Part shown: positions 7,698 to 49,136 of the stretch, in pieces | How the letters are laid out: each line of letters begins with the position of its first letter | Position numbering within the stretch: the first letter of the stretch is position 1 | DNA from: Sneathiella sp. | GTDB lineage: Bacteria > Pseudomonadota > Alphaproteobacteria > Sneathiellales > Sneathiellaceae | Direction: 5' to 3' | Length of the DNA: 61,680 bases | NCBI RefSeq assembly: GCF_002694385.1 | Contig: NZ_NZMB01000021.1 | Coordinates: 119,925 to 181,604 of the forward strand | Program-made: the position numbers and the translations under genes | The notes under the pieces: model-generated | What the model saw: the letters and a program-made list of their open reading frames with translations, nothing else | Database searches by the model: none | Told to the model about the DNA's origin: nothing

Positions 7698-8568
7698 GAC
7701 CCAAAATCCCCTGTGGACGGACAATAAGCAGAACAATGACCAGCACAAACATGGCGAGCGTGGCCGTGGACGGGTCGAAATAATAACCGCCGAAGCTTTC
7801 AATCAGGGCAATCAGCAGCCCGCCGATAATGGCGCCGACCACACTGCCGAGCCCGCCGATAATGATGATGATGAAGGCCTTGACGAGAAAGTCATCGCCG
7901 ATCACGGTGGTCACCGGTGTCACCGTCGCCATCAGGGCGCCGGCGCAGGCGGCCAGCGTCGCGCCAATGAGAAAGCCGTAGAGCGCCACCCGGCGGAACG
8001 GAATGCCCTGCAGCATCGCCGCCTCCTGATCCTCAGCGACGGCGCGCAGGCTGAGGCCGAGCTTCGTGCGGTGGACGAGAATATAAAGACCCAGCGTAAT
8101 AACGGCCGCGACGATCATCAGCAAAAGCCGCTGCAACGTCAGGCTGGCGCCGAGAAAGGTGACCACGCCCGGAACAACGGTGGGAATGGAGCGCGGCACG
8201 CCGCCATAGAGGATCAGATAGGTGCCGTTCAGCAGCAGCAGCAGCCCGATCGACAGGATGAAGGAGCCGTTGAGATCCTTCAGGAAATGCTGAAAGCCGA
8301 AGATATAGACGATGAAACCGATCAGGCAGACCACCGCAAGCGCCAGGAAAAACGCCAGGATGTAGGACAGCCAGATGGACAGGCCCATCGTGCCGACGCC
8401 CCAGATCATCACCGAGGAGACAATCAGCGCCGCCGCGGTGAAAAAGGTCCCATGGGCAAAATTGACGATTTTCATGACGCCGAAAATCAGCGTCAGCCCG
8501 AGCGCAAACAGCACATAAACAGAGCCGATCTGCAGCGTATTCATAAGTAGCTGTACTTGTAGTTCCAT
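7684..8568 (-). CDS. livH: Branched-chain amino acid-type ABC transporter, permease LivH
   Basis: A 294-residue hydrophobic protein with the LivH start (LMNTLQIGSVYVLFALGLTLIFGVMKIVNFAHG, seen in pieces) and the cytoplasmic loop LGLSLRAVAEDQEAAMLQGI that contacts the ATPases. It is followed by livM with a short overlap and preceded by the binding-protein gene across an 84-base gap that contains a long stem-loop. Confidence 0.92.
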   Translation of the reverse strand: MELQVQLLMNTLQIGSVYVLFALGLTLIFGVMKIVNFAHGTFFTAAALIVSSVMIWGVGTMGLSIWLSYILAFFLALAVVCLIGFIVYIFGFQHFLKDLNGSFILSIGLLLLLNGTYLILYGGVPRSIPTVVPGVVTFLGASLTLQRLLLMIVAAVITLGLYILVHRTKLGLSLRAVAEDQEAAMLQGIPFRRVALYGFLIGATLAACAGALMATVTPVTTVIGDDFLVKAFIIIIIGGLGSVVGAIIGGLLIALIESFGGYYFDPSTATLAMFVLVIVLLIVRPQGILGHAEK

Positions 8569-8601
8569 CGCTTTGGTCCGGTCGTTACGGGGCCAGAGTG
8601 A

Positions 8602-8637
8602 GGAGACGCCAGCTTTTGAAATCTGGCTGGCGTCTCC
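8602..8637 (-). promoter_or_regulatory. 12-bp perfect stem-loop between livK and livH
   Basis: GGAGACGCCAGC and GCTGGCGTCTCC pair perfectly around a 12-base loop. On the transcribed (minus) strand no T run follows, so this is not a classic terminator. Such hairpins after a binding-protein gene usually protect its message from 3' exonucleases and raise its level over the permease genes. That role is inferred. Confidence 0.6.
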
Positions 8638-8652
8638 GTTTTCCAGTCGGAA

Positions 8653-9846
8653 TTACTTAAGGCGTTCCTTAAGCTCTTCCGGGGCAACGCGCCCGACTTC
8701 CACGGCTTTGCCGTCCTTGACCTGCGTGATCATGACCGGGATCAGGATCTGCTGCGGCGAGCCATAGACATCCTTGCCGCCAAAGGCCGCCGGGCCATAG
8801 GAAGATTCAAAGATGATTGTCGGCAGGGTTTCCGCGACCTTTTTCGGGTCGATGCTGTCCGCCGTTTCAATCGCCTTCTTCAGCGCCATCACCGCATCAT
8901 AGCTTGAAATGGTGATGGCGTTCAGGGATTCGCCGACTTCTTTTACGGCGCCTTCATTCAGCGTGCGCTGGGCTTCGCTGGCGGAATCGCCCTGGAAGTC
9001 AGCCGACGCGCCGAGATAGGTGCCTTCCGCAGCCTGGCCCGCCATCTGGCTCAGCGTTCCGGCCGAGGTTCCGGGGGCGACAACCTTGATACCGTCCCAG
9101 CCGAGCACGTCCAGCGCCTTCATGATGGAGCCGACATCCGCAGGGGGAGAGGCGCCAAAGTCAACGGCATCGGGGTTGCTGTTGGCGATTTTCGTCGCGA
9201 TGGACTGGAATTCGGTCGTACCACGTTCATAGCGGTCCGTGGAAACCACTTCCACATCCAGGCTGTTCCAGGTTTCAATCGCCACCGGCTCGACTTCCTG
9301 ACCGGTCGCATCATTGGGGGTGATCATCGCGACCGTTTTGAGATCGGGATGCTGACCCTTGATGTAGCCGAAGAACGGGCCGAGGATTTCAAACGGGGTG
9401 TTCATCTGCGTGAAGGTCAGCGGATAGTCCGGTCCCTTGATGCTCTTGCCCCAGCCCGTGTTGAACAGCAGCACGCCCTGACGCTCGGAAAGGGCCTGTG
9501 TTGCGCGCACGGGGGCCGTGCCGATGCTGCCGACGATGAATTTGATATTTTCGCGGTTCAGCATGGTCTGCGCGGTCTTGGCGCCTTCGGCCGCGTTGTA
9601 TTTATTGTCATAGGCATGCAGCTCCAGCATATAGGTCTTGCCACCCGCCTTGATGCCGCCTTCGGAATTGACCTTTTCAACGGCCTGCTTCGCGGCATAT
9701 TCAAAGCCGAGACCCCAGGCCGCCGCCGCGCCCGACATCGGCGCCGACAGGCCGACCTTGAGGGTCTCGTCGGCGAGAGCCGTCTGTGCACTGAACAGGG
9801 CCAGCAACGCCCCGCCCGTAATGCCGATAATCTTCTTCATAGACAT
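8653..9846 (-). CDS. livK: Periplasmic substrate-binding protein of the Liv-type transporter
   Basis: A 397-residue periplasmic binding protein of the type I (Leu/Ile/Val) fold. A signal peptide covers about residues 1-25 (KK, a hydrophobic stretch, cleavage after TALA). The mature start LKVGLSAPMSGAAAAWG and the Y-containing region VEKVNSEGGIKAGGKTYMLEL are family hallmarks. It is the first gene of the transporter operon. The cargo cannot be read from sequence. Its place beside CoA-ligase and hydratase genes makes an aromatic or aliphatic acid as likely as an amino acid. There is no AAC-N4-GTT palindrome before it, so it may not belong to the TetR regulon. Confidence 0.88.
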   Translation of the reverse strand: MSMKKIIGITGGALLALFSAQTALADETLKVGLSAPMSGAAAAWGLGFEYAAKQAVEKVNSEGGIKAGGKTYMLELHAYDNKYNAAEGAKTAQTMLNRENIKFIVGSIGTAPVRATQALSERQGVLLFNTGWGKSIKGPDYPLTFTQMNTPFEILGPFFGYIKGQHPDLKTVAMITPNDATGQEVEPVAIETWNSLDVEVVSTDRYERGTTEFQSIATKIANSNPDAVDFGASPPADVGSIMKALDVLGWDGIKVVAPGTSAGTLSQMAGQAAEGTYLGASADFQGDSASEAQRTLNEGAVKEVGESLNAITISSYDAVMALKKAIETADSIDPKKVAETLPTIIFESSYGPAAFGGKDVYGSPQQILIPVMITQVKDGKAVEVGRVAPEELKERLK

Positions 9847-37871: not shown

Positions 37872-38450
37872 GCATTATGGGCTACCAGTGGGCTACTCTG
37901 TGTAATGTAATCTATAGCTTGAAGTAGAGCAGATTAGTGATTGAAATTCTCATTTTAGTCAGTATTTGGCCTAACGAAGACATTTGTTTGAATGGCTCAA
38001 TGTTCCGCTATTCCGACTTTTGACACTTTCGCACGACTACGCTTCTTAGTTGCTCTGAGCGGAGAGTTGTCATTCGCCGCAGGCGCATCGTGATCTAGTT
38101 ACCTTGAAAAACTAGACATTGGTGGTGTTCAAGATGAACGTTTGGCCGCTCATCCCCAATCAGGGGGACGCTCCTGCCACCCCCGATGCACGCATAACCA
38201 GGAAGGAGACCAGCTCTCCCTCCATGAACCTCCGATCGCTAAGGGGAGCTTTCTGCGCTCTTCTGCACCCATCGACCACAGGGAATGTCTTCCCATTTGA
38301 ATCTCCGACCAACCTTCAGCTAGTTGGAAGCTGAATGCTCACCACTATGTGGGGGCCGACTACACTTTGCGCGCAGGCAGGCAGCGTGATAGTCTCACAA
38401 ACAAACCGGCGGTTCCAGAAACGAGCTGCCAAATCAGGCGTATTCTCGAC
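37872..38450. other. Gap before the Gabija-like operon
   Basis: About 580 bases with no supported gene. A small hairpin GGAGA/TCTCC lies at about 38204. The promoter of the nuclease-helicase pair should be in its right part. The start chosen for the nuclease is ATG 38451. Confidence 0.4.
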
Positions 38451-40481
38451 ATGCACATTGAACAGATTAAAATTGAGAACTTTCGGCTACTGCAAAATTG
38501 TTGCCTCGACATGCGAGAGAAAACAACTCTTCTTGTCGGGAAAAACAACACTGGAAAAACCTCTTTTGCCGTTTTGCTGGAAAGATTTTTGGAGAGACCC
38601 GATCATTTTACTTACACGGACTTTCCGATCCAGATACGACAGAAAATACTCGGTATTGACGATGACACGAATGCCGAGGAGTTCGCGATCAGGCTGGTAC
38701 TGCGCATAGCTTATGACGAGACCGACAACCTTTCCATTCTCTCCGAGTTCATGCTGGACCTCGATCCGACGCGCCGACATACCAGCATCCTTTTCGAATG
38801 TTGCATTGACAAAAGTAAGCTGCTTCGCGCGCTACCGGACGATCCGAAAGAGCGAAAGAAATTCATTGAAAACAACCTCAGTGGAAAGTTTCTGAATATT
38901 AAAGTTTATGCGTTTGATGATTTTGGTCACACCGAGGAAACGCCGTACTACATGGCACATCGCGATCAACTGGAAGAGAAAGAGCGATCCGAAGTGCGGG
39001 AGCTTTTGAATTTTCAGGTTATTCATGCCCGCAGAGATGTTGCGAGCTCGGAAAATGCCGGACGTGGCGCAAAACCTCTGTCGGCAATATCTACCAAGTT
39101 TTTTCGAAAGCGCGACATCGAGGTTGATGACGATGACGAGACAGCGGGGTCAGATGGTGAAAGCCTTGAAAAGCTCAGGTCGATGCTTGCCGGCATTGAT
39201 GACCAACTCGGAGAGCAATATGCGCAGGTTTTCGGGGACTTTTTAAAGAGCTCCCACGACTTTCTGGAATTGGGTGACTTGAAGGTCGTCTCCAACATTC
39301 AATCGCAGTCACTCATCGAAACCTCGTCGCAAGTCATATACGGCGAAACCGACAACTTTCTTCCTGAGCACTACAGCGGACTCGGATATCTGAACATCCT
39401 TTATCTACTGTTGCAGATTGAGTTGTGCCGAGACGACTTTGCCAGACGAAACGCCCCGCTGAACCTCCTGCTTATCGAAGAGCCTGAAGCACACACTCAT
39501 CCGCAGATGCAGTACGTTTTCGCTGATAAAATCCATGGATTGATCTCGAAAATTCCAAATTTGCAGGCTTTGTTGACGACCCATTCCTCCCACATCGTTT
39601 CGAAATCGAACTTTGAGGACATTAGGTATCTTTCACGACAGTCTCCCGCGGAACCTGTCACGATCAAGAACTTTCACACTGATCTGAGCGCCAAGTACAA
39701 AGAGCTTGGGGCGGACGGAGTAGCGCTCTTTCAGTTTCTCAAGCAATACCTCACAATAAACTCTGCGGAACTGTTCTTCGCAAGCAAAGCGATTTTCATC
39801 GAGGGAACCACGGAACGCATCCTGCTTCCTTTATTCATCGAGATGCATGACAGGGAGAACGTCGATGAGACGGCGGCGGGCGGGCTGTCTTCGCAAAACA
39901 TATCCGTTCTTGAAGTCGGAGCTAATGCGCGTGCGTTTGCTCCGTTCCTTGAGTTCATTGGCGTTCGCACATTGGTCATCACCGATATCGACACAACCAA
40001 AGCTGTTGTCAGTGAGGGGACAGGAAAAACCAGCTATCCTGCCTGTCCTGTTGCAGAGTCGAGCAACACCTCAAATGAATCCCTGAAGCACTTTCTTTCA
40101 GCCCCTGATCCAAAGGAAGTGAGCGAGTTCTCGGACTGGCATAAGCGCCTGATAGATGGAACTGCTTCTTCGGACGAAGGGCAGATTAAGATTGCCTACC
40201 AGCTTGCGGAGGATGGTTACCATGCAAGAAGTTTTGAAGACGCCTTCGTTTCGATCAACCTAGAAAAAGTCAAGGCCCGCAAGGATATGTTGGCGGGTTT
40301 GAAAAACAGGGGCACATTGGATGCATTTAGTGGCAATGACTTTTATTCTCTCACAAGTCAGATACTCGGAAAGAAATCCGATTTTGCTGGGTCGGTTTTG
40401 TACCTGGCGCTTGTGGAGCGCGAAAGCTGGCGTGCGCCCAAATATATCATGGATGGTCTGAAATGGATTCACAAAAATTGA
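38451..40481 (+). CDS. gajA: OLD-family ATP-dependent endonuclease, Gabija GajA-like
   Basis: A 676-residue protein in two parts. The N-terminal ABC-type ATPase has Walker A VGKNNTGKTSF at about residues 28-38 and Walker B LLLIEEPEAHTHPQMQ, with TTHSSHIVSK beyond it. The C-terminal TOPRIM nuclease has its glutamate in FIEGTTERILLPLF and an aspartate pair in VITDIDTTKA. In Gabija, GajA is a sequence-specific DNA nickase held off by nucleotides and released when phage replication lowers them. The canonical GajA is about 580 residues, so this is a long variant. ATG 38451 gives the family start HIEQIKIENFRLL. It overlaps the helicase gene by 19 bases. Confidence 0.78.
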   Translation: MHIEQIKIENFRLLQNCCLDMREKTTLLVGKNNTGKTSFAVLLERFLERPDHFTYTDFPIQIRQKILGIDDDTNAEEFAIRLVLRIAYDETDNLSILSEFMLDLDPTRRHTSILFECCIDKSKLLRALPDDPKERKKFIENNLSGKFLNIKVYAFDDFGHTEETPYYMAHRDQLEEKERSEVRELLNFQVIHARRDVASSENAGRGAKPLSAISTKFFRKRDIEVDDDDETAGSDGESLEKLRSMLAGIDDQLGEQYAQVFGDFLKSSHDFLELGDLKVVSNIQSQSLIETSSQVIYGETDNFLPEHYSGLGYLNILYLLLQIELCRDDFARRNAPLNLLLIEEPEAHTHPQMQYVFADKIHGLISKIPNLQALLTTHSSHIVSKSNFEDIRYLSRQSPAEPVTIKNFHTDLSAKYKELGADGVALFQFLKQYLTINSAELFFASKAIFIEGTTERILLPLFIEMHDRENVDETAAGGLSSQNISVLEVGANARAFAPFLEFIGVRTLVITDIDTTKAVVSEGTGKTSYPACPVAESSNTSNESLKHFLSAPDPKEVSEFSDWHKRLIDGTASSDEGQIKIAYQLAEDGYHARSFEDAFVSINLEKVKARKDMLAGLKNRGTLDAFSGNDFYSLTSQILGKKSDFAGSVLYLALVERESWRAPKYIMDGLKWIHKN

Positions 40482-42529
40482 ATCCGGTAGATCGGATCGC
40501 AGAGCTTGTTTCCGGCGGCGAGAATTTCGTACTTCAAGGCGGGGCCGGCAGCGGAAAGACCGAGAGCCTGAAGAGGGTCGTGCAAAAGGTTCTGAAGGCC
40601 AATCCGAGCCTTCTTATTGCGTGCATCACTCATACGAACAAAGCGGCAGACGAAATTGCTGACCGTGTATCCGGCGACATCAAGGTTTCAACGATTCATT
40701 CGTTCTTGGGAGAGATCATTTCACCGTTCAAGAAGAACATCCAACAGGTTTTCCCGAAGCTCTTCGAGCTACCTGACTTTGTTGCCCTTGGAGATGAGCA
40801 CTACGACGGCGACGAAAAGGTGAGGAAAAAGGGTGAGCATGACCGGTTTAAGAAGGCGCACGGCCAGCTCGAAAACCGCCGCAGGACGGTATTAAGTGAA
40901 GAGACGCCGAAAGTCACCGGAAAACGGGATTACGACAAGGATCCCGACAAATACAATGCGCAGCTCAATGGGTTGATAGGCGAGATCAACAAAGAAATCT
41001 GCGAGAAGCTGGCGGCGAGACAACCGAACGAGTTCTTCTACAACGATACTGCCTTTGATAATTTCAACGATCCTTCATACGGCCATGATGGCCTGATCGC
41101 TTTGGCCTGCCATATGTTTGAAGGCTTCCCGTTGCTAGGCAGGATCGTATCAGATCAGTATGACTGCATCCTTATTGATGAGTATCAGGACACAAGTGCA
41201 GTTGTCGTTTGTGTCCTCCTGCGCTGTTTGCCCGAAGAATCGAAAACCATCATTGGATTGTTCGGCGACTCTGAACAGGCCATCTATTCAGATGGCATTG
41301 GAAGCGCTCAGTCACATATCGATGCTAAAGAACTCATTCTTGTCGAGAAGGAGGACAATTATCGGTGCTCCCCCCAAGTAATTGATTTTTCCAATCAGTT
41401 TCGGACAGACGGTCTAAAGCAGGATGTAGCGCTGAAGTCGCTTGATATCGGAACTCTTGAAACCCTTGAAAGTCGCCAAGGCAGCGTGAAGTTACTGTAC
41501 GGTTTGGCTCCTGTGGAGGTCGATACGGGAGATAAAGCGGAAGATCGGAAGGCAAAAGCATTGTTCAGAAGCGCACTTAACGAACTGGTTGAAAAAGCCG
41601 CCTCTGAATATCCGGGCTACGTTCAATTGAAACTTACGAATAAGTCTATTGCGAACGATGTCGGTTTCGGAAGGTTATATCAGATCTTCGATGATCGGTA
41701 CTCCGAGCCACGGGACCGCATACGTAAGACGCTCGACAGGTTGCAGTTTGGCGAATTGATTGAACTGGTTGCTCTGCACAGGAGTTTGCCAGGTGATAGA
41801 CGTTCGTATAATCGATTGATCGCGAAATTGCGGAAGCGCGGGTTCTCTATTTCATCAGTGGCAGATAAGGCAAAGCTGGATGAGATGCTTCGCTCGTTCG
41901 GGTCGAAGGATCGCGCCGCCTATGAGGCCATAGAGTATGCCGCCGAATGTGGCTTGATGAAATTTTCGGACAGCCACAAGGCATTTGTTGATCGGCGCAA
42001 TGAGCTTTTGGCGAAGCTTGCAGATGATCCTGTCTTTGCCGAGTTTGAAGGACTATACCGGAACAGCCATCGTACCAAACTCCAAATGTTAAAAGAGGTG
42101 GCTGCCACGAGTATGAAGCACATCAGCGCTGAAATGCTTGAGCAGGAGTACGATGACAGATTAAAAGACCTGAAGCAGAAGAGTTTCCTTGAATCTATGT
42201 TTTCGCCGGATTTGGCCCTTAGCGAGATATTGGCGTTTTATGAGTATGAGGACAGTGAAGGCGAGTATTCTACGATGCACAAAACGAAAGGAACGGGTAT
42301 TGAGAATGTGCTTCTCGTTATCGACGAGTATGGCTGGACGACAGCGTATGATTTTGTGAGTTGTTTTGCAAAAGACATCCCAGAGTCAAAACGAGAAATT
42401 TCGTCAAGAAAGCTTCTTTATGTTGCAAGTTCGCGAACGAAGAAGAATCTCGTGTGCGTTCGCCTAATGAAAAGTCAAGAAGAGGCCGATCAGATTGCAT
42501 CATTTTTTCCTGAAGCCGTGAAGCTCTAG
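40463..42529 (+). CDS. gajB: UvrD/Rep-like helicase, Gabija GajB-like
   Basis: A 688-residue superfamily 1 helicase. Motif I GGAGSGKTESLKRV (around residue 27), motif Ia ACITHTNKAADEI, motif II ILIDEYQDTSAVV, motif III GLFGDSEQAIY, motif V STMHKTKGTGIENV, and motif VI LLYVASSRTKKNL. It follows the OLD nuclease with a 19-base overlap. This nuclease-plus-helicase order defines Gabija and close relatives. Canonical GajB is about 500 residues. The extra length lies in a charged insert (around 110-180) and the middle. It could equally belong to a related OLD-UvrD system, as the family border is not sharp. Confidence 0.76.
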   Translation: MDSQKLNPVDRIAELVSGGENFVLQGGAGSGKTESLKRVVQKVLKANPSLLIACITHTNKAADEIADRVSGDIKVSTIHSFLGEIISPFKKNIQQVFPKLFELPDFVALGDEHYDGDEKVRKKGEHDRFKKAHGQLENRRRTVLSEETPKVTGKRDYDKDPDKYNAQLNGLIGEINKEICEKLAARQPNEFFYNDTAFDNFNDPSYGHDGLIALACHMFEGFPLLGRIVSDQYDCILIDEYQDTSAVVVCVLLRCLPEESKTIIGLFGDSEQAIYSDGIGSAQSHIDAKELILVEKEDNYRCSPQVIDFSNQFRTDGLKQDVALKSLDIGTLETLESRQGSVKLLYGLAPVEVDTGDKAEDRKAKALFRSALNELVEKAASEYPGYVQLKLTNKSIANDVGFGRLYQIFDDRYSEPRDRIRKTLDRLQFGELIELVALHRSLPGDRRSYNRLIAKLRKRGFSISSVADKAKLDEMLRSFGSKDRAAYEAIEYAAECGLMKFSDSHKAFVDRRNELLAKLADDPVFAEFEGLYRNSHRTKLQMLKEVAATSMKHISAEMLEQEYDDRLKDLKQKSFLESMFSPDLALSEILAFYEYEDSEGEYSTMHKTKGTGIENVLLVIDEYGWTTAYDFVSCFAKDIPESKREISSRKLLYVASSRTKKNLVCVRLMKSQEEADQIASFFPEAVKL

Positions 42530-42836: not shown

Positions 42837-43449
42837 GGTGTTGTCACATTAACTTACGGTAGGCGCGAAGGAACCGAAGTAACAATACACAGGCAGCGGT
42901 AGTCGCAGATTTCCAAATGCCAAATGCTTCAGAGCGGCATTCCTTGAAGTATGTTCGTGTAATTAGGTGACGTTGGGTATAAAAAATATTGTATGTGGCT
43001 GAGTGGATATTGAGAAACTTCTGAGCAGATCCCGGCGATTTAAATTTCTGCATCTTTCGTTCCTGCTTTCGGATAGGAAGATGTGAATTTTCAGCTCTAT
43101 TATTCGCTCTTTTGTTATCAATATGCTCGGTGTTCAAGCCTAGAATTCGAAAAGCTTTATGATAGGATTTCAGTTTATCTGTTATTAGCGTTGGCGCAAA
43201 ACCTTGTTTCTTCAATAATTTTTTTATTAGTTTCAAGGCAGCTTTGGCATGTTTCTTTAATTGTACGAGAAAATCTAACACTTCACCTTCGTTATCAATG
43301 GCGCACGATAGCAAGTATCGAGCATACAGCCAGACAGCATGCTGAATGATTTGAGGCGAGAAACGATGGCGCTGATAGGAGAGCTTTTTGCATCAACCAA
43401 GATTAGATTGTCATGCATTTTCTCGCGACAAAGTAAATGTGACAACACC
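42837..43449 (-). mobile_element. IS6-family element with internal deletion
   Basis: Terminal inverted repeats GGTGTTGTCACATT (42837-42850) and AATGTGACAACACC (43436-43449) are perfect. The 613-base length is short for IS6 (about 800) because the middle of the transposase is gone. No 8-base target duplication is seen at the flanks. Confidence 0.8.
42844..43383 (-). pseudogene. IS6-family transposase lacking its middle part
   Basis: The frame reads YQRHRFSPQIIQHAVWLYAR, the usual N-terminus, and jumps directly to CAIDNEGEVLDFLVQ, the middle of the DDE domain. The HTH and first catalytic Asp are missing. The remainder has ITDKLKSYHKAF (second Asp), NNRAENSHLPIRKQERKMQ (Glu) and the family end. 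The normal start codon is also not visible. The protein cannot be active. Confidence 0.8.
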
Positions 43450-43499: not shown

Positions 43500-44078
43500 T
43501 TACCAACCAGATCTTTTCTGAGCGCGATTCAATGCCCACCGTTTTGCATCGGATTTTCGTATCCTAAACTCTAGTAACTGCTCGCTAACATGAAAGTATT
43601 GGCATGCTTCGTCAAGTGACAGAAAATCCTCCACAGCAACCAGTGCTGCGGGTTTAGGAACAAGCAATGTAAACCCCAAATCGTGCGCTTCTCGCTCCAT
43701 GCGTTTATCGAAATTTCGGCAACCATCTTTCAGCATTGGAGGTTTGGGAGGATGGCCTAAAATAATGTGGGCGAGTTCATGTGCGATATTCGAATTTTGA
43801 CGATAAGGGTGGTGGCTGTCGTTATGGATTATCTCTTTATAGGTCCCGTTATTTAGTGTTACAGCTGAGAAATCATTTTGTCCGCCGTTTGTAAAATGCT
43901 CGACAACATCGGCTTGTATATTCGGGTGTTTGGTTAGTTCCCAAACAGGAATCGAAAGGTGATCCGCCAGTTCCAGAGCAGTCAATGGGCTGCAATCGGT
44001 CAGTCCTAGTTCTTGTCTGAACTCCTTTGCGTATTCTTCTGATTCTTTGATGAAACCCCTGCGGTGTCGAAAAGCCAA
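43500..44078 (-). CDS. ImmA/IrrE-family metallopeptidase
   Basis: A 192-residue protein with the zinc motif HELAH in NSNIAHELAHIILGH and a later Glu-rich helix DKRMEREAHDLGFTLLVP, which supplies the third ligand region. The family cleaves or regulates partner XRE repressors (as ImmA with ImmR). Here it directly follows an XRE gene (44079-44432) with no gap, so the two are a regulator/protease pair. This could be a phage-type switch of the island, a stress regulator or a toxin-antitoxin unit. Confidence 0.85.
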   Translation of the reverse strand: MAFRHRRGFIKESEEYAKEFRQELGLTDCSPLTALELADHLSIPVWELTKHPNIQADVVEHFTNGGQNDFSAVTLNNGTYKEIIHNDSHHPYRQNSNIAHELAHIILGHPPKPPMLKDGCRNFDKRMEREAHDLGFTLLVPKPAALVAVEDFLSLDEACQYFHVSEQLLEFRIRKSDAKRWALNRAQKRSGW

Positions 44079-44432
44079 TTATTTTTTCCTCATATGCTCG
44101 TATGCTGATTTCAACATGGTTTCCAAGGCGACCGCACTATCACCTTCAAGGTTTTTGTCAGCACGCAGTAGTGCCGAAATCTCCGATAATGGTTCGGATT
44201 TGGCCAGCGTGGCTGTATTAGACCTGTAGAATTTCTTGACATCAATGCCGGACCAAGAGGCCAGCCCCGCGAGTGTATCAACGTCGGGTCGCTTACCTTG
44301 ACCCATTCTGGTGAGAGTTGACGCTGAGACATGTGCCTCCGAGGCGACTTTCTTCCAGGTTATCCCCTTTGATTGTCTATGGCCGTCTAAAGCCGCGTAG
44401 AACCCTTCCGCATCAAATTTTTCGTTCGACAT
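44079..44432 (-). CDS. XRE-family HTH regulator paired with the ImmA/IrrE protease
   Basis: A 117-residue protein with start ATG 44432 (GGAG in the leader, nine bases before). Residues 12-65 are an XRE helix-turn-helix (ITWKKVASEAHVSASTLTRMGQGKRPD, seen in parts), followed by a helical tail ending KSAYEHMRKK. The upstream frame to 44498 lacks a ribosome site. It is divergent from the DUF2188 gene, with a 108-base shared control region. Such repressors often bind their own promoter region. Confidence 0.85.
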   Translation of the reverse strand: MSNEKFDAEGFYAALDGHRQSKGITWKKVASEAHVSASTLTRMGQGKRPDVDTLAGLASWSGIDVKKFYRSNTATLAKSEPLSEISALLRADKNLEGDSAVALETMLKSAYEHMRKK

Positions 44433-44540
44433 ATGAGCTCCAATTTCATTATTGCAATTTTTTTTAAAATGTGGCATTGCTTGTGGTGACGATTGCAATA
44501 TAGCAATTTAAAATCACTGTAGCAATAGGAGATCGGGCAT

Positions 44541-44765
44541 ATGTCCAAGCGCAATCAACATGTGACGCCTCATCCGGAAGGCTGGGCTGTCCAAGGAGCT
44601 GGATCGCAGAGGGCGACCAGTGTTCATTCAACACAAGCGGAAGCAATCAATCGCGCACGTGAGATCGCGCGCAATCAGGAGACGGAACTTTTGATACATG
44701 GGCGGGATGGCCGCATTCGGGAGCGCGATTCCTATGGAAATGACCCTTATCCGCCCAAGGGGTAA
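44541..44765 (+). CDS. DUF2188 domain protein
   Basis: A 74-residue protein covering the whole DUF2188 domain: HVTPHPEGWAVQGAGSQRA, then THSTQAEAI-type VHSTQAEAINRAREIARNQ, and IHGRDGRIRERDSYGNDP at the end. The function is unknown. The family is widespread on mobile DNA. AGGAG precedes the ATG at 44541. A terminator follows. Confidence 0.85.
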   Translation: MSKRNQHVTPHPEGWAVQGAGSQRATSVHSTQAEAINRAREIARNQETELLIHGRDGRIRERDSYGNDPYPPKG

Positions 44766-44792
44766 AAAAGGACTCATTGAGTCCTTTTTTTA
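44764..44792 (+). terminator. Terminator after the DUF2188 gene
   Basis: AAAAAAGGACTCA pairs with TGAGTCCTTTTTT (two-base loop) and continues with T. It overlaps the stop region of the DUF2188 gene. Confidence 0.8.
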
Positions 44793-44963
44793 ATGACACA
44801 ACGGAATAGAAGCGCATTGAAGTGAATACCAACGCCTTACAAATCCTTGAAGAAATAGGTATCCAGCTTGATAACGGTCAGTTTCCTTGTGTGCACAATG
44901 GCGGAATTGTAATGCCCAGCAAGGCTGCCATTTCCTATAACGCACTGGGCAAGGAGAAAAGTG

Positions 44964-45113
44964 ATGCCGAAAGACAAGCCAAGACACGATCCACAGCCGG
45001 ATCACGGAAACGGACCGCCCGCAGGCAAGGGGCGTCCAGACGATGTCGGGAGGCCCGTGACGCCTCACCGCTCATCAACGCAAAAGTTCGTAAAAACTAT
45101 TTGCGAGACTTGA
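44964..45113 (+). CDS. 49-residue ORF in front of the E2-like gene
   Basis: AAGGAG (44951-44956) lies seven bases before this ATG, the best ribosome site in the neighbourhood. The product (MPKDKPRHDPQPDHGNGPPA at the start) is rich in Pro, His, Asp and Gly, then turns basic and ends KFVKTICET. It has no known domain and is too short for firm assignment. Its stop TGA overlaps a TTG in the frame of the E2-like protein (TTGA, 45110-45113), so the two may be translationally coupled. It could be a small partner or a leader peptide. Confidence 0.45.
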   Translation: MPKDKPRHDPQPDHGNGPPAGKGRPDDVGRPVTPHRSSTQKFVKTICET

Positions 45114-45709
45114 AGCGTGTAACTAAGGCGTATCCCGCTATAAAAGTGTGGGATACGCCAACCGGCTTGTGGTTGCGAGCACCGGCTATGCCTGTTCAGC
45201 ATTCAAACCGTGAGGTCACCTTTTTGATATTCCTTCCCTATCCAGAAGGTTTGCCGTTAAAAGCATGGGCGTTCTGGTCAAGCATTATGGGGTATACATG
45301 GATTGGACCACGGCATACCAATGCCCCAGATGGGAGTATTTGTGCGTTCGAACCGGGGGATCATTCGTGGCAGCAGGGTGACAAAATAGTCAGGCTGCTT
45401 GACATATTTTGTGTTTGGGCTGTCCGTCATTTGCATCTTGAAAAGATAGGTCGCTGGCCGGGTTATCAGGCCGTTCCACATCCTTATGAACGTCTGATGG
45501 AAGTGCAAGATAATGAATATTGTGGTTGTGACAACGCAGGGCGGCGATATGCGGACTGCTGCAAGCAAGACGATTTGGCGCTAGGCCATGAAAGCCTAAG
45601 GCACGATTTCGAGGCCAAATATGGTCATTCGAAGGTCGTTCCAAAAGTCATCAAGAATTTTGTTGAGGGAAGTGGTCCGTTGCCCGTAATTTGTTACCCA
45701 TCTTTCTAA
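45110..45709 (+). CDS. Ubiquitin-conjugating (E2/UBC)-like domain with a Cys-rich tail
   Basis: Residues up to about 130 read like a bacterial E2 fold: an N-terminal helix, strands IKVWDTPTGLWLRAP and VTFLIFLPYPEGLPLKAWAF, then GPRHTNAPDGSICAFEPGDHSW. In the last, a Cys (codon 45341-45343) follows the His-Asn and Gly as in E2 active sites. The LLDIFCVWAVRHL helix follows. The tail DNEYCGCDNAGRRYADCCKQDD has a CxC...CC cluster likely to bind zinc, SEC-C-like. The frame is open back to 44822, but that part is arginine-rich and overlapped by the 49-codon ORF, so a TTG start at 45101 or 45110 is preferred. No E1, ubiquitin-like, JAB or CD-NTase gene is nearby. Confidence 0.55.
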   Translation: MKRVTKAYPAIKVWDTPTGLWLRAPAMPVQHSNREVTFLIFLPYPEGLPLKAWAFWSSIMGYTWIGPRHTNAPDGSICAFEPGDHSWQQGDKIVRLLDIFCVWAVRHLHLEKIGRWPGYQAVPHPYERLMEVQDNEYCGCDNAGRRYADCCKQDDLALGHESLRHDFEAKYGHSKVVPKVIKNFVEGSGPLPVICYPSF

Positions 45710-45885: not shown

Positions 45886-46785
45886 TTAGAACTGTAACAG
45901 TCTTTTATATTCAACGTGCTTTTGGTCAATGCCAAGTGCGCAGATCCGCTCCTCAGCTTCCGTGGAATCTTTATGATAGCTAACCGTCCATTTGACGGTC
46001 GCATGGTTAATATTATTGATAATTTCTTGGAAATATGGCGCGTCAACATCTGCCAAAGAATGCCCCATGATGAGGATCTCCTGAACTGTGTTCAAACCTG
46101 CAAAAAAGAGGCTGTTTTTTGCTATGATTTTCTCACAGGGTTTAAATGTCTGTGAAAAATAATCGTCAACAATCCGATTGCCTTCAATCACTCGTGTGTC
46201 TGCTTCTTCTTGGTTGATGTGGTGATTTAATGATTCCTCTGGCTCTCGTTCCCAGCCATGACCAATTATGATGTCACTATCTGGCTGATCGGCTTTCCCA
46301 TGAATATGCAGAATATGGGCGTCGTCAATACAGTAGGTTTTTTGAAGCGTATGAGTGTAATTGAAATTGAGGAATTGCGCTGCCGGGTCGATCCTAACCC
46401 GAATTGCATTTGTTAGCTGTTGGGTCTTAGGTATCGGGAGTTGCCTGATCCATGACGCGAAATGTCGTCGCATCGTTGATGAAATAGCGTCAACCGTACT
46501 ATCTAATTCAAATTGATAATCGTGGTGATAGGAATCGCTCCAATCATCTGCTCCGTATGAGACCAAAAAATTACTGGCATCATCAATTAGCGTGTCCGTA
46601 TCGAAAAAGGCCAGCATTTCTTCAAACTGCCACCAAGACTGGTCGTTGACCGGGAAATACCGTTCGATAATTTGATAGGTCTCATAATCTGTTTTTTCCA
46701 GATATGCCCCAAAGTCCTTGTAGTCGGAAGGAATCCCGTGATGGCGATCAAATCCATTGCCAATGATGTACAGCTTATTTGTCAA
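45886..46785 (-). CDS. abiH: AbiH-family abortive infection protein
   Basis: A 299-residue protein with the AbiH start LYIIGNGFDRHHGIPSDYKDF, the middle FLNFNYTHTLQKTYCI, HIHGKA and the end ILIMGHSLADVDAPYF. AbiH was first described as a lactococcal plasmid-borne phage-exclusion protein, and the mechanism is not settled. The GNGFD loop suggests nucleotide binding. The gene converges on the E2-like gene with a 176-base gap without features. Together with the OLD-UvrD pair this makes the region a defence island. Confidence 0.85.
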   Translation of the reverse strand: MTNKLYIIGNGFDRHHGIPSDYKDFGAYLEKTDYETYQIIERYFPVNDQSWWQFEEMLAFFDTDTLIDDASNFLVSYGADDWSDSYHHDYQFELDSTVDAISSTMRRHFASWIRQLPIPKTQQLTNAIRVRIDPAAQFLNFNYTHTLQKTYCIDDAHILHIHGKADQPDSDIIIGHGWEREPEESLNHHINQEEADTRVIEGNRIVDDYFSQTFKPCEKIIAKNSLFFAGLNTVQEILIMGHSLADVDAPYFQEIINNINHATVKWTVSYHKDSTEAEERICALGIDQKHVEYKRLLQF

Positions 46786-47463: not shown

Positions 47464-47729
47464 ATGGTCAAAGTTAATTTCAGTGATGAATTCAAGCGTG
47501 ATGCTGTGCGTCAGATAACGGAGCGCGGGTATCCTGTTTCCGAGGTGTCGAAGCGTTTGGGGGTCAGTTCGCATTCGTTATATGCGTGGAAGAAGAAGTT
47601 TTCTGATGCCCCAGAGGGGATGATAAAGACACAGAGATCAGGCGTCTGAAGCGCGAATTGGAGCGTGTCACAGAGGCGCGCGATATCCTAAAAAAGGCCA
47701 CGGCGTACTTCGCTCGGGATGCAAAATGA
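47464..47729 (+). pseudogene. IS3 orfA, frameshifted
   Basis: The HTH protein starts normally (VKVNFSDEFKRDAVRQITER, VSSHSLYAWKKKF). After DAPEG one base is missing, and the frame hits TGA at 47647-47649. In the next frame the proper continuation is intact (DDKDTEIRRLKRELERVT and ILKKATAYFARDAK). So a single-base loss at about 47621 broke it. This site is not the A-rich programmed frameshift site of IS3. Confidence 0.8.
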
Positions 47730-48602
47730 AGTACGCGTTTATTGCCAGGCATCGTTACAGTTTTCCGGTTCGCACGATTTGTAAACTACTCCATATTCAC
47801 CCCAGTGGTTTTTACGCCTGGCTCAGGCGCCCGATCAGCAGTCGTGCCCGTGAGGACGCACGGCAGACGGAGCTTATCAAGAAGGCTTGGCTTGCCAGTG
47901 GCAAAGTCTATGGGTATCGCAAACTGCATCATGACTTGCGAGATCAGGGCGAAGAATGTTCAGCAAATCGTGTGGCGCGTCTGGCAAGCCTTGCAGGGAT
48001 CAAAGCACAACTTGGCTATAAGCGGCGGCCAGGAAGATACAGTGGCAGGCCTGCCATTATTGCAGACAACAAGGTTGCACAGAAGTTTGAGACAAACACT
48101 CCGGACCAGGTGCGGGTCACAGATATTACCTACTATTCGGACCCATGAAGGGTAGAGCTATCTAGCGGTTGTGATAGATCTGTTTTCCCGCCGTGTTATC
48201 GGCTGGTCAATGCAATCAGGGATGACGACAGATCTTGCCTTGCAGGCCCTGTTGATGGCGGTCTGGCGGCGCAAGCCAACGCAGAAAGTAATCATTCATT
48301 CTGATCAAGGCAGCCAATTCACCAGTCAGGAATGGCAAACTTTCCTGCAAACACATAACCTTGAGGCCAGCATGAGCCGGCGCGGCAATTGCCATGACAA
48401 TGCTGTAGCTGAGAGCTTCTTCCAACTACTCAAAAGAGAAAGGATACGGCGGAAAACCTATGCAACACGTGCTGAGGCACGATCAGATGTGTTCGATTAC
48501 ATTGAGATGTTCTGCAATCCAACATGCAAACATACTAACAACGGGATGCTGTCACCTGTAAACTACGAAGAACAGTACAATTTGATGAACAGTGGTGTCT
48601 AA
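47726..48602 (+). pseudogene. IS3 orfB (DDE transposase), frameshift plus amber stop
   Basis: The N-terminal part MKYAFIARHRYSFPV to VRVTDITY is intact. An extra T at about 48134 then shifts the frame to a stop at 48146-48148. In the correct frame a further TAG stands where Trp is expected (HEG-stop-SYLAVVIDLFSRR). The rest, with HSDQGSQF, GNCHDNAVAESFF and the end of the catalytic domain, is intact. Confidence 0.82.
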
Positions 48603-48639
48603 CAAACTAGGGGCATCTCAAATTCCATAGAATCCTGGA

Positions 48640-49136
48640 ATGAAAAATTATAATCCATTCCGCTATTTCAATACATTGCCTGAGATCATCCGCCTGGCGG
48701 TGATGATGTATGTCAGATTTCCCCTTTCGCTTCGCAACATCGAAGATTTTCTTCATGAGCGCGGCATTGATATCAGCCATGAAACAGTCCGCTGATTTTT
48801 CTTAAGAAACTTATGAAACGGTATGGAAAACCGCAAGAAATAGTAACGGACAGATTACGTTCATATCGTGCCGCAATGACGATGATTGGAAATGAGGCAT
48901 CGCAAGAAACTGGCTGTTGGAAGAACAATCGCTGTGAAAATTCTCACCTGCCATTCCGGCGACGAGAATACGCAATGCTAAAGTTTAGACGCTTGTGAAG
49001 TTTGCAGAAATTTGTTTCTATTTACGCATCAGTCCATAACTACTTCAACCATGAACGTCACCTAAACAACCGAGAAACATTCAAGCTTCAACAAAATGCC
49101 GCACTAGCCGAGTGGCAGCAACTTAGCGCGGCATAA
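48640..49136 (+). pseudogene. IS6-family transposase remnant with a middle deletion
   Basis: The N-terminus YNPFRYFNTLPEIIRLAVMM to RGIDISHETVR is intact and then stops. A deletion of the first part of the DDE domain joins it to FLKKLMKRYGKPQ-like sequence (48796 on). This continues through TDRLRSYRAAM and ENSHLPFRRREYAMLKFRRL, a further TGA, and FNHERHLNNRETFK to the normal end. It is of a different IS6 branch from the 42837 copy. Confidence 0.8.

Follow-up and report, generated by a model that had tools for sequence, protein, structure and literature searches.

The closest described counterpart of the protein considered here is the E2 of the Serratia marcescens CdnG-E2 complex (PDB 8yjy and 8hsb), which contains a UBC domain with a catalytic Cys and no fused E1. 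In 2024, Yan et al. reportedly described this protein in Nat Microbiol as a single, E1-less CBASS E2, and it is said to process and conjugate its cyclase without an E1. An E2-type Cys domain is also found in the Cap2 E1-E2/Cap3 pair of type II CBASS, and E2-like proteins are encoded in Bub and Bil operons. The UBC fold is shared by the UEV domain of TSG101/Vps23; UEV domains have no catalytic Cys. Outside this fold, Pup is a small disordered modifier whose ligase is glutamine-synthetase-like rather than E2-like.

Two further aspects of these systems are relevant to the locus analyzed here. Single-stranded DNA is the signal to which the CapH+CapP and CapW regulators respond, and the adjacent operons under their control include CBASS, BREX, Pycsar and DISARM; type II CBASS operons can be under either regulator, and CapW or CapH+CapP accompanies 219 of 544 Bub operons (PMC13373217). 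A conjugated CBASS protein can lack both the beta-grasp fold and the diglycine, and conjugated CD-NTases have a conserved C-terminal residue (PMC10097602).

Here, we report a computational analysis of an E2-like gene in a 61,680-nucleotide stretch of DNA from Sneathiella sp. (hereafter, the window), with an emphasis on a second, small gene that lies out of frame within it. On balance, we favor the view that the two nested genes form a self-contained, stress-inducible E2-like unit. Among the titles and abstract openings listed in literature searches, none dealt with this E2 family or with a small gene lying inside that of an E2. The features of the locus and its surroundings are as follows.

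38349-42529: Gabija pair upstream of the unit (PADLOC GajA, E 3.8e-194; GajB, E 1.3e-270)
43500-44078, minus strand: ImmA/IrrE (M78) peptidase, CapP-like (Peptidase_M78, E 6e-15; capP, E 1e-7)
44079-44435, minus strand: XRE (HTH) repressor, CapH-like (Pfam HTH_3, E 3.5e-5; PADLOC capH, E 0.0065)
44451-44526, no strand: putative operator, repeated ATTGC/GCAAT between the XRE and DUF2188 genes
44541-44765, plus strand: DUF2188 small gene (PADLOC PDC-S16), optional companion (DUF2188, E 6.1e-27; PDC-S16, E 6.2e-41)
44822-45709, plus strand: E2-like gene, GTG start, 295 codons (open reading frame in the window)
44822-44935, plus strand: N-terminal block spanning residues 1-38, a helix with a pair of short strands and the pattern LxxIGxxLD...NGGIV (alignment and AF2 model)
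44936-45076, plus strand: linker, residues 39-85 (predicted disordered over 39-81, pLDDT <50)
44951-44956, plus strand: ribosome-binding site of the nested gene, AAGGAG (SD core)
44964-45113, plus strand: nested small gene, +1 frame, 49 codons, ATG at 44964, stop at 45113, within the E2 ORF
45077-45517, plus strand: UBC-like (E2) domain, residues 86-232 (VIA-align to 8yjy_B; PADLOC E2 model)
45314-45343, plus strand: H165-T-N167...C174, presumed catalytic motif (HTN...DGSIC, Cys174 at 45341-45343)
45521-45574, plus strand: SEC-C-like zinc motif C234, C236, C246, C247, D251 (invariant in 26 of 26)
45886-46785, minus strand: AbiH gene, convergent with the E2 gene (Pfam, E 3.2e-71)

In contrast to CdnG-E2, the unit in the window has no CD-NTase, and its E2 adds the N-terminal block, the linker, the SEC-C-like tail and the out-of-frame nested gene. 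It differs from Cap2/Cap3 in the absence of an E1 domain, a JAB peptidase and a cyclase, and from Bub and Bil operons in that no Ubl, E1 or JAB was recognized beside the E2. The likeness to pupylation lies in a small disordered protein that could serve as a modifier, whereas the nested protein has no conserved C-terminal Glu/Gln and the enzyme is E2-like.

The comparative analysis is based on 37 loci, namely three plasmid records, 32 loci from species genomes, one locus from the same class (L039) and the window; many of these are closely related. Counts over 36 loci leave aside a degraded remnant with a stop (L005) and a locus with a frame change (L031), the latter being retained in the 37-locus count of regulators. 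The alignment of the E2-like protein (A4) comprises 26 of the 37 sequences, including that from the window.

The E2-like protein is real, and its predicted model resembles the UBC fold. In the aligned sequences, 36 columns are invariant. The pattern HxN...G.(I/L)C on which the original prediction relied corresponds to HTN...DGSIC with Cys174, and H165, T166, N167, D170, G171, S172 and C174 are unchanged in all 26 sequences, so the proposed cysteine is indeed conserved. The same holds for L9, I12, G13, D17 and G28 of the N-terminal block and for C234, C236, C246, C247 and D251 of the tail, which include the cysteines of the previously noticed CxC...CC cluster. The AF2 model, built from 22 sequences (mean pLDDT 81.4, pTM 0.79), consists of an N-terminal part with pLDDT of 92-94 at residues 1-30 and 68 at residues 31-40, a linker predicted to be disordered over residues 39-81 (pLDDT <50), a helix at 87-103, five strands, a helix at 189-209 and a helical tail; the helix at 189-209 corresponds to the one previously noted after the cysteine. 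Structure prediction, proposed earlier as a check for a UBC fold, gave a UBC-like one: the top VIA-align match was 8yjy_B (Z 9.4, rmsd 3.4, 134 residues aligned) and the second 8hsb_B (Z 8.3), both chains being the E2 of the Serratia CdnG-E2 complex, and UBC, UEV and RWD domains made up the majority of the best 50 rows. Because best Z values of 7-8 are common for models without a clear match, and 9.4 is only modestly higher, the VIA-align result is modest by itself.

Foldseek with the same model gave no match at E <= 0.001, the top three rows being human E2s at E 0.08-0.12; PDB sequence searches with the protein found no E2, and the window protein had no match in Pfam or NCBIfam. The six Pfam families matched at E <= 1 by the 26 members include no E2 family such as UQ_con or Prok-E2_A to E. 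The PADLOC E2 model PDLC00858 matched residues 99-230 of the window protein weakly (E 0.0011), and weak matches to PADLOC E2 models were obtained for up to 10 of the 26 members. The tail resembles the SEC-C zinc motif by its arrangement of residues; Pfam SEC-C (PF02810) matches seven of the 26 members (best E 2.6e-4), the window protein not being among them.

The start of the E2-like gene was picked by us for each locus from a survey of upstream start codons. In the window, GTG 44822 lies 11 codons before an invariant Ile-Gly; an ATG or GTG is found at this distance in 20 of the 36 loci, the window among them, another 13 have an ATG 15 codons ahead of Ile-Gly, and in the remaining three (L006, L009 and L027) ATGs occur at other distances. 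From these starts the frame runs uninterrupted through the E2 domain in every one of the 36 loci. TTG 45110 is a very unlikely alternative start: it would cut the helix at 87-103 and drop the conserved N-terminal block, it is disfavored by the agreement of GTG 44822 with the start position of other loci, and in 21 of the 36 loci the E2 frame offers no ATG, GTG or TTG for such a restart from the start of the nested gene up to a conserved Ala-Tyr. Possible restart codons do occur in this interval in the other 15 loci: two TTG in the window, three codons in L021 and, in 13 loci of rhizobial or Sphingomonas origin, a GTG located six bases beyond the stop of the nested ORF.

The small ORF had been placed upstream of the E2-like gene, as a coupled gene ending inside its start region with a TTGA overlap. 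The 49 codons and the strong ribosome-binding site stand (AAGGAG at 44951-44956, ATG at 44964), but the position does not: the ORF is not an upstream neighbor and lies entirely within the E2 gene, in the +1 frame, at 44964-45113, over E2 residues 48-97, that is, the linker and the beginning of the helix at 87-103. A nested ORF starting with ATG is present in all 36 loci that have an intact E2, and thus none of them lacks the small ORF whose conservation had been put forward as a check. A 4-mer of the SD core precedes the nested start in 35 of the 36 loci and the E2 start in five of the 36, counts that depend on the chosen starts of both genes; our script shifted the nested start to a later ATG in L010, L020, L022, L024 and L027, and the first survey had used an ATG further upstream in L020, L022 and L024. 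The original observation thus holds and, since the small ORF is conserved and hidden inside the E2 gene, is more interesting than first described; the earlier interpretation as an E2-like unit with a small ORF is partly supported.

The first half of the nested protein is rich in Gly, Pro, Asp and Lys (His in Burkholderia relatives) and is followed by a conserved segment, G-R-P-V/I/L...H-x-S-S (GRPV..HRSSAQ), from the end of which the Erythrobacter proteins deviate, and then by a tail that varies. Across 22 sequences, no more than four columns are invariant, none of them a lysine, and the C-terminal residue is not conserved across loci. The length of the protein changes by whole codons, as in the GRPPEH repeats of Herminiimonas (L021:7825-8004), and the His-rich runs of the Burkholderia relatives (L022-L024) also vary by whole codons. 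A ubiquitin-like fold is unsupported, as the model of this Pro/Gly-rich protein has no predicted secondary structure (pTM 0.13), and a Pfam scan of 22 nested proteins found no credible family, antitoxin or other. In 385 genomes of the class, a profile of the nested protein matched strongly only in the two that have the E2 (G000 and G302), and no stand-alone relative was found; eight weaker matches (E 5e-4 to 0.009), two of which were judged from the longest open frame, look like low-complexity chance.

To which frame the constraint in the overlap belongs can be read from the substitutions. In the frame-identity test (16 loci; 111 of 120 pairs, with core identity <55%), identity in the overlap was highest in the nested frame (0.51), with values of 0.26 for the E2 frame and 0.24 for the third; both of the latter exceed the null value of 0.19 obtained when the nested amino acids were fixed and codons resampled. 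The codon-position test, conducted on 12 loci and four groups, one of which (Burkholderiaceae) carried no information for the overlap, gave differing fractions of 0.22/0.13/0.61 at nested codon positions 1/2/3 (31 codons, 12 loci). At E2-frame positions 1/2/3, the fractions were 0.13/0.10/0.58 in the active-site block and 0.46/0.32/0.66 in the N-terminal block. Among close relatives compared pairwise, changes in the overlap at nested positions 1/2/3 numbered 66/96/244 in seven rhizobial-type loci and 15/23/110 in six Roseobacter-type loci. These third-position biases indicate that amino acid constraint acts on the nested frame within the overlap and on the E2 frame in the blocks to either side. 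The E2-frame identity in the overlap barely exceeds that of the third frame, which counts against full dual constraint.

Across the nested ORF, none of 18 representatives has a stop in the E2 frame, and 13 of the 18 have one or more in the third frame. The chance of an open E2 frame per locus was 0.000-0.145 given the nested amino acids and E2-core codon usage (a small sample) and 0.028-0.406 when synonymous codons were permuted within the ORF; hence single loci are weak as evidence for maintenance of an open E2 frame, and loci that are related do not count as independent in this test. Conversely, given the amino acids of the E2 frame, chance alone would leave the nested frame open with P of 0.12-0.85 per locus, so that its openness alone is weak evidence. 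Judged from the substitution patterns, the nested frame is under amino acid constraint; the E2 frame, for its part, stays open in all 36 loci. We read this as two nested genes, both presumably translated; for the nested gene itself, translation is highly probable. The simplest reading of the alignments would be one long E2 chain whose linker needs only to be open and flexible, with a second gene sharing its DNA.

A defense-type regulator next to the gene is also seen at its homologs. In a scan of one adjacent protein per locus, the regulator beside the E2 was Peptidase_M78 in 35 of 37 loci and WYL in two (L006 and L007 by their sequences), and the capP model matched 18 of the 37 (best E 7.3e-66). 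Most regulators are divergent from the E2, the pair in L023 having the same orientation, and XRE and ImmA, separate genes in the window, are fused or split in other loci. The putative operator region contains seven ATTGC/GCAAT sites in 105 bp, against a window average of 0.28, and a 17-base stretch of it is common to the window and L039, where the E2 gene follows directly. A DUF2188-like gene was seen by eye at the same position in L007. Between DUF2188 and the E2 gene lies a perfect hairpin (A6-GGACTC-ATT-GAGTCC-T7, 44764-44791), found by eye and absent from the terminator scan; this terminator-like element may uncouple the E2 from the regulated promoter or weaken its expression. Relatives of the window XRE gene at about 72% DNA identity, each with ImmA, occur beside integrases on Phaeobacter and Sulfitobacter plasmids (L057 and L058), one of them near a Qat defense gene, and the switch thus looks modular.

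The gene does lie between the XRE/ImmA genes and AbiH, as had been stated. AbiH itself, however, is probably outside the unit, because no constant downstream gene was recognized among the neighborhoods listed; for the same reason, neither AbiH nor any other downstream gene is supported as a fixed partner. The neighbor scan covered 110 of 145 selected proteins and the best 25 of 209 PADLOC and 25 of 84 Pfam families, and the defense genes found among the 110, uncorrected for background, include SIR2-Argonaute, SoFic, Gabija, type I restriction and an endonuclease effector. The cluster in the window is flanked by fragments at 42844-43314 and 47464-48998 that we take, by eye, to resemble IS6-type and IS3-type transposases, respectively.

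The E2-like unit is rare in bacteria. The E2 gene was found in its own genome and as one remnant among 191 relatives, in its own genome and one other among 385 genomes of the class, and as a long match in its own genome only among 398 genomes in the phylum, where three further matches were short (E 0.002-0.005). A single-sequence search of genome contigs with the E2-like protein gave no match, and none was found in the phage records and viral contigs searched. By record name, the alphaproteobacterial loci belong to Rhodobacterales, rhizobia, Erythrobacter and Sphingomonas, the betaproteobacterial ones to Gallionella, Herminiimonas, Burkholderia relatives and Ralstonia, and the gammaproteobacterial ones to Marinimicrobium and a Piscirickettsiaceae bin; deltaproteobacterial bins are represented as well. 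The remnant, in a genome of the same genus (L005), is degraded and has a TAG stop, which suggests that the unit has been gained and lost. In Ralstonia pickettii (L031:7484-8432), a one-base frame change separates the N-terminal part of the E2 from the active site, and the nested ORF is present. The record of an R. etli plasmid (L003) annotates the nested ORF (7852-7995) together with a shortened E2 that retains the last 155 codons (8220-8687) and begins just ahead of the active-site Cys, the real start having been missed; for the Sulfitobacter plasmid, there is no gene under the E2 match among the PLSDB table entries listed.

From these observations, a working model can be outlined. Going by gene order, the ImmA peptidase or WYL regulator would silence the unit in the absence of DNA damage or infection, upon which repression would be lifted and both the E2 and the nested protein made, the latter as a disordered protein of about 48 residues that the linker DNA would encode in the +1 frame from its own ribosome site. 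By analogy with the Serratia E2, the E2 might work without a dedicated E1, Cys174 forming a thioester with a partner chain that would then be passed to a lysine, and the zinc tail would direct targeting. We consider E2-type thioester chemistry probable, and a defense or stress-toxic role of the unit equally so; a role in phage defense is plausible. The nested protein, which accompanies every intact E2 (36 of 36 loci), would be the likeliest partner, as modifier or substrate, and its variable C-terminal tail after GRPV..HRSSAQ could be trimmed. That the nested protein is what gets conjugated is nevertheless a tentative suggestion that we regard as rather doubtful: its C-terminal residue is not conserved, leaving simple C-terminal conjugation unsupported. 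Somewhat less probable still is the most specific form of the model, an E1-independent, perhaps ATP-free E2 that would form its thioester by attacking an internal peptide bond of the out-of-frame disordered modifier and, once DNA is damaged or a phage infects, attach this peptide to targets, with no ubiquitin fold, E1 or cyclase.

The main rival explanation, to which we assign a low but appreciable probability, resembles a toxin-antitoxin pair: the E2 would have toxic enzymatic activity and be inhibited by an excess of the nested protein, with nesting preventing the separation of the two. The near-universal SD core of the nested gene and its scarcity before the E2 gene (35 against five of 36 loci) would fit such an excess, as would the co-occurrence of the two ORFs in 36 of 36 loci and the ImmA-type repressor. 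Yet the regulator already supplies control, and none of the 22 nested proteins has a credible antitoxin match in Pfam.

In another scenario, an E1 would act in trans, either a housekeeping MoeB/ThiF or a PRTRC-type ThiF, with a conventional ubiquitin-like protein encoded elsewhere and the nested protein only a regulator. The host genome has two ThiF-family matches, on contigs C1 and C14, with the window on C10, and one of them lies beside a PRTRC_A-like protein. This C14 region (L045) is a distinct PRTRC-like cassette in which a ThiF-type E1 is found with a PRTRC_A-like protein (TIGR03735, E 4.9e-6; TIGR03736, E 1.3e-11, both under cut-off); the same locus encodes a 259-aa protein with NVFDDGRICTG and no Pfam or NCBIfam match, perhaps another E2-like protein (by eye). 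Prok-JAB was detected below cut-off only (contig C5), the SMODS model for SMODS-type CD-NTases had no match in the host genome at E <= 0.001 (the control being positive in three of 14), and the Multi_ubiq search gave no match, but neither did its control. The window's contig itself has no ThiF or SMODS match and no dedicated E1 was found on it, which supports the reported absence nearby of E1 and, for the SMODS type, CD-NTase genes. By eye, no E1 was recognized beside the unit among the other neighborhoods listed either, except in a separate type II CBASS-like operon of L002 (9813-13349; JAB, an E1-E2 fusion and neighbors), which lies on the opposite strand, some 1 kb away from the unit. As the unit is found in many different hosts without an adjoining E1, we consider this scenario improbable.

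A non-enzymatic role, for which we see an equally small chance, would make the protein a UEV/RWD-type adaptor binding the proline-rich nested peptide, comparable with TSG101 and PTAP-type peptides. TSG101 UEV chains are indeed the next structural matches after the two Serratia chains (Z up to 7.7), followed by many other UBC/RWD folds, and the nested protein is predicted to be unstructured and is rich in Pro and Gly. UEVs, however, have no catalytic Cys, whereas Cys174 and the His-x-Asn of the window family are invariant in 26 of 26 sequences.

Two further readings concern the nested frame itself and are both very improbable. If it were untranslated, its conservation would reflect an RNA or DNA element, a view that the weak evidential value of an open nested frame (P 0.12-0.85 per locus) would allow; the third-codon-position bias in that frame, its own SD and ATG, and the whole-codon length changes such as the repeated GRPPEH in L021 all stand against it, since codon periodicity is not expected of an RNA element. 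Programmed frameshifts that fuse the nested peptide to the N-terminal block on one side and to the E2 on the other would account for the way the frame of amino acid constraint moves by +1 and then back along the gene. However, synonymous resampling predicts stops in the E2 frame across the overlap, and all 18 representatives are free of them; inspection of the start junction by eye showed no constant slippery sequence, and the nested start has an SD and an ATG.

We therefore return to the two nested genes of an E2-like unit as the preferred reading. A conserved, out-of-frame gene inside an enzyme gene, present in alpha-, beta-, gamma- and deltaproteobacterial records, is unusual, and the E2 gene that harbors it is easily missed by annotation, as on the R. 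etli and Sulfitobacter plasmids. The unit is compact enough for direct testing, and if the nested protein is the modifier of the E2, it would provide a minimal model of conjugation without an E1 or ubiquitin.
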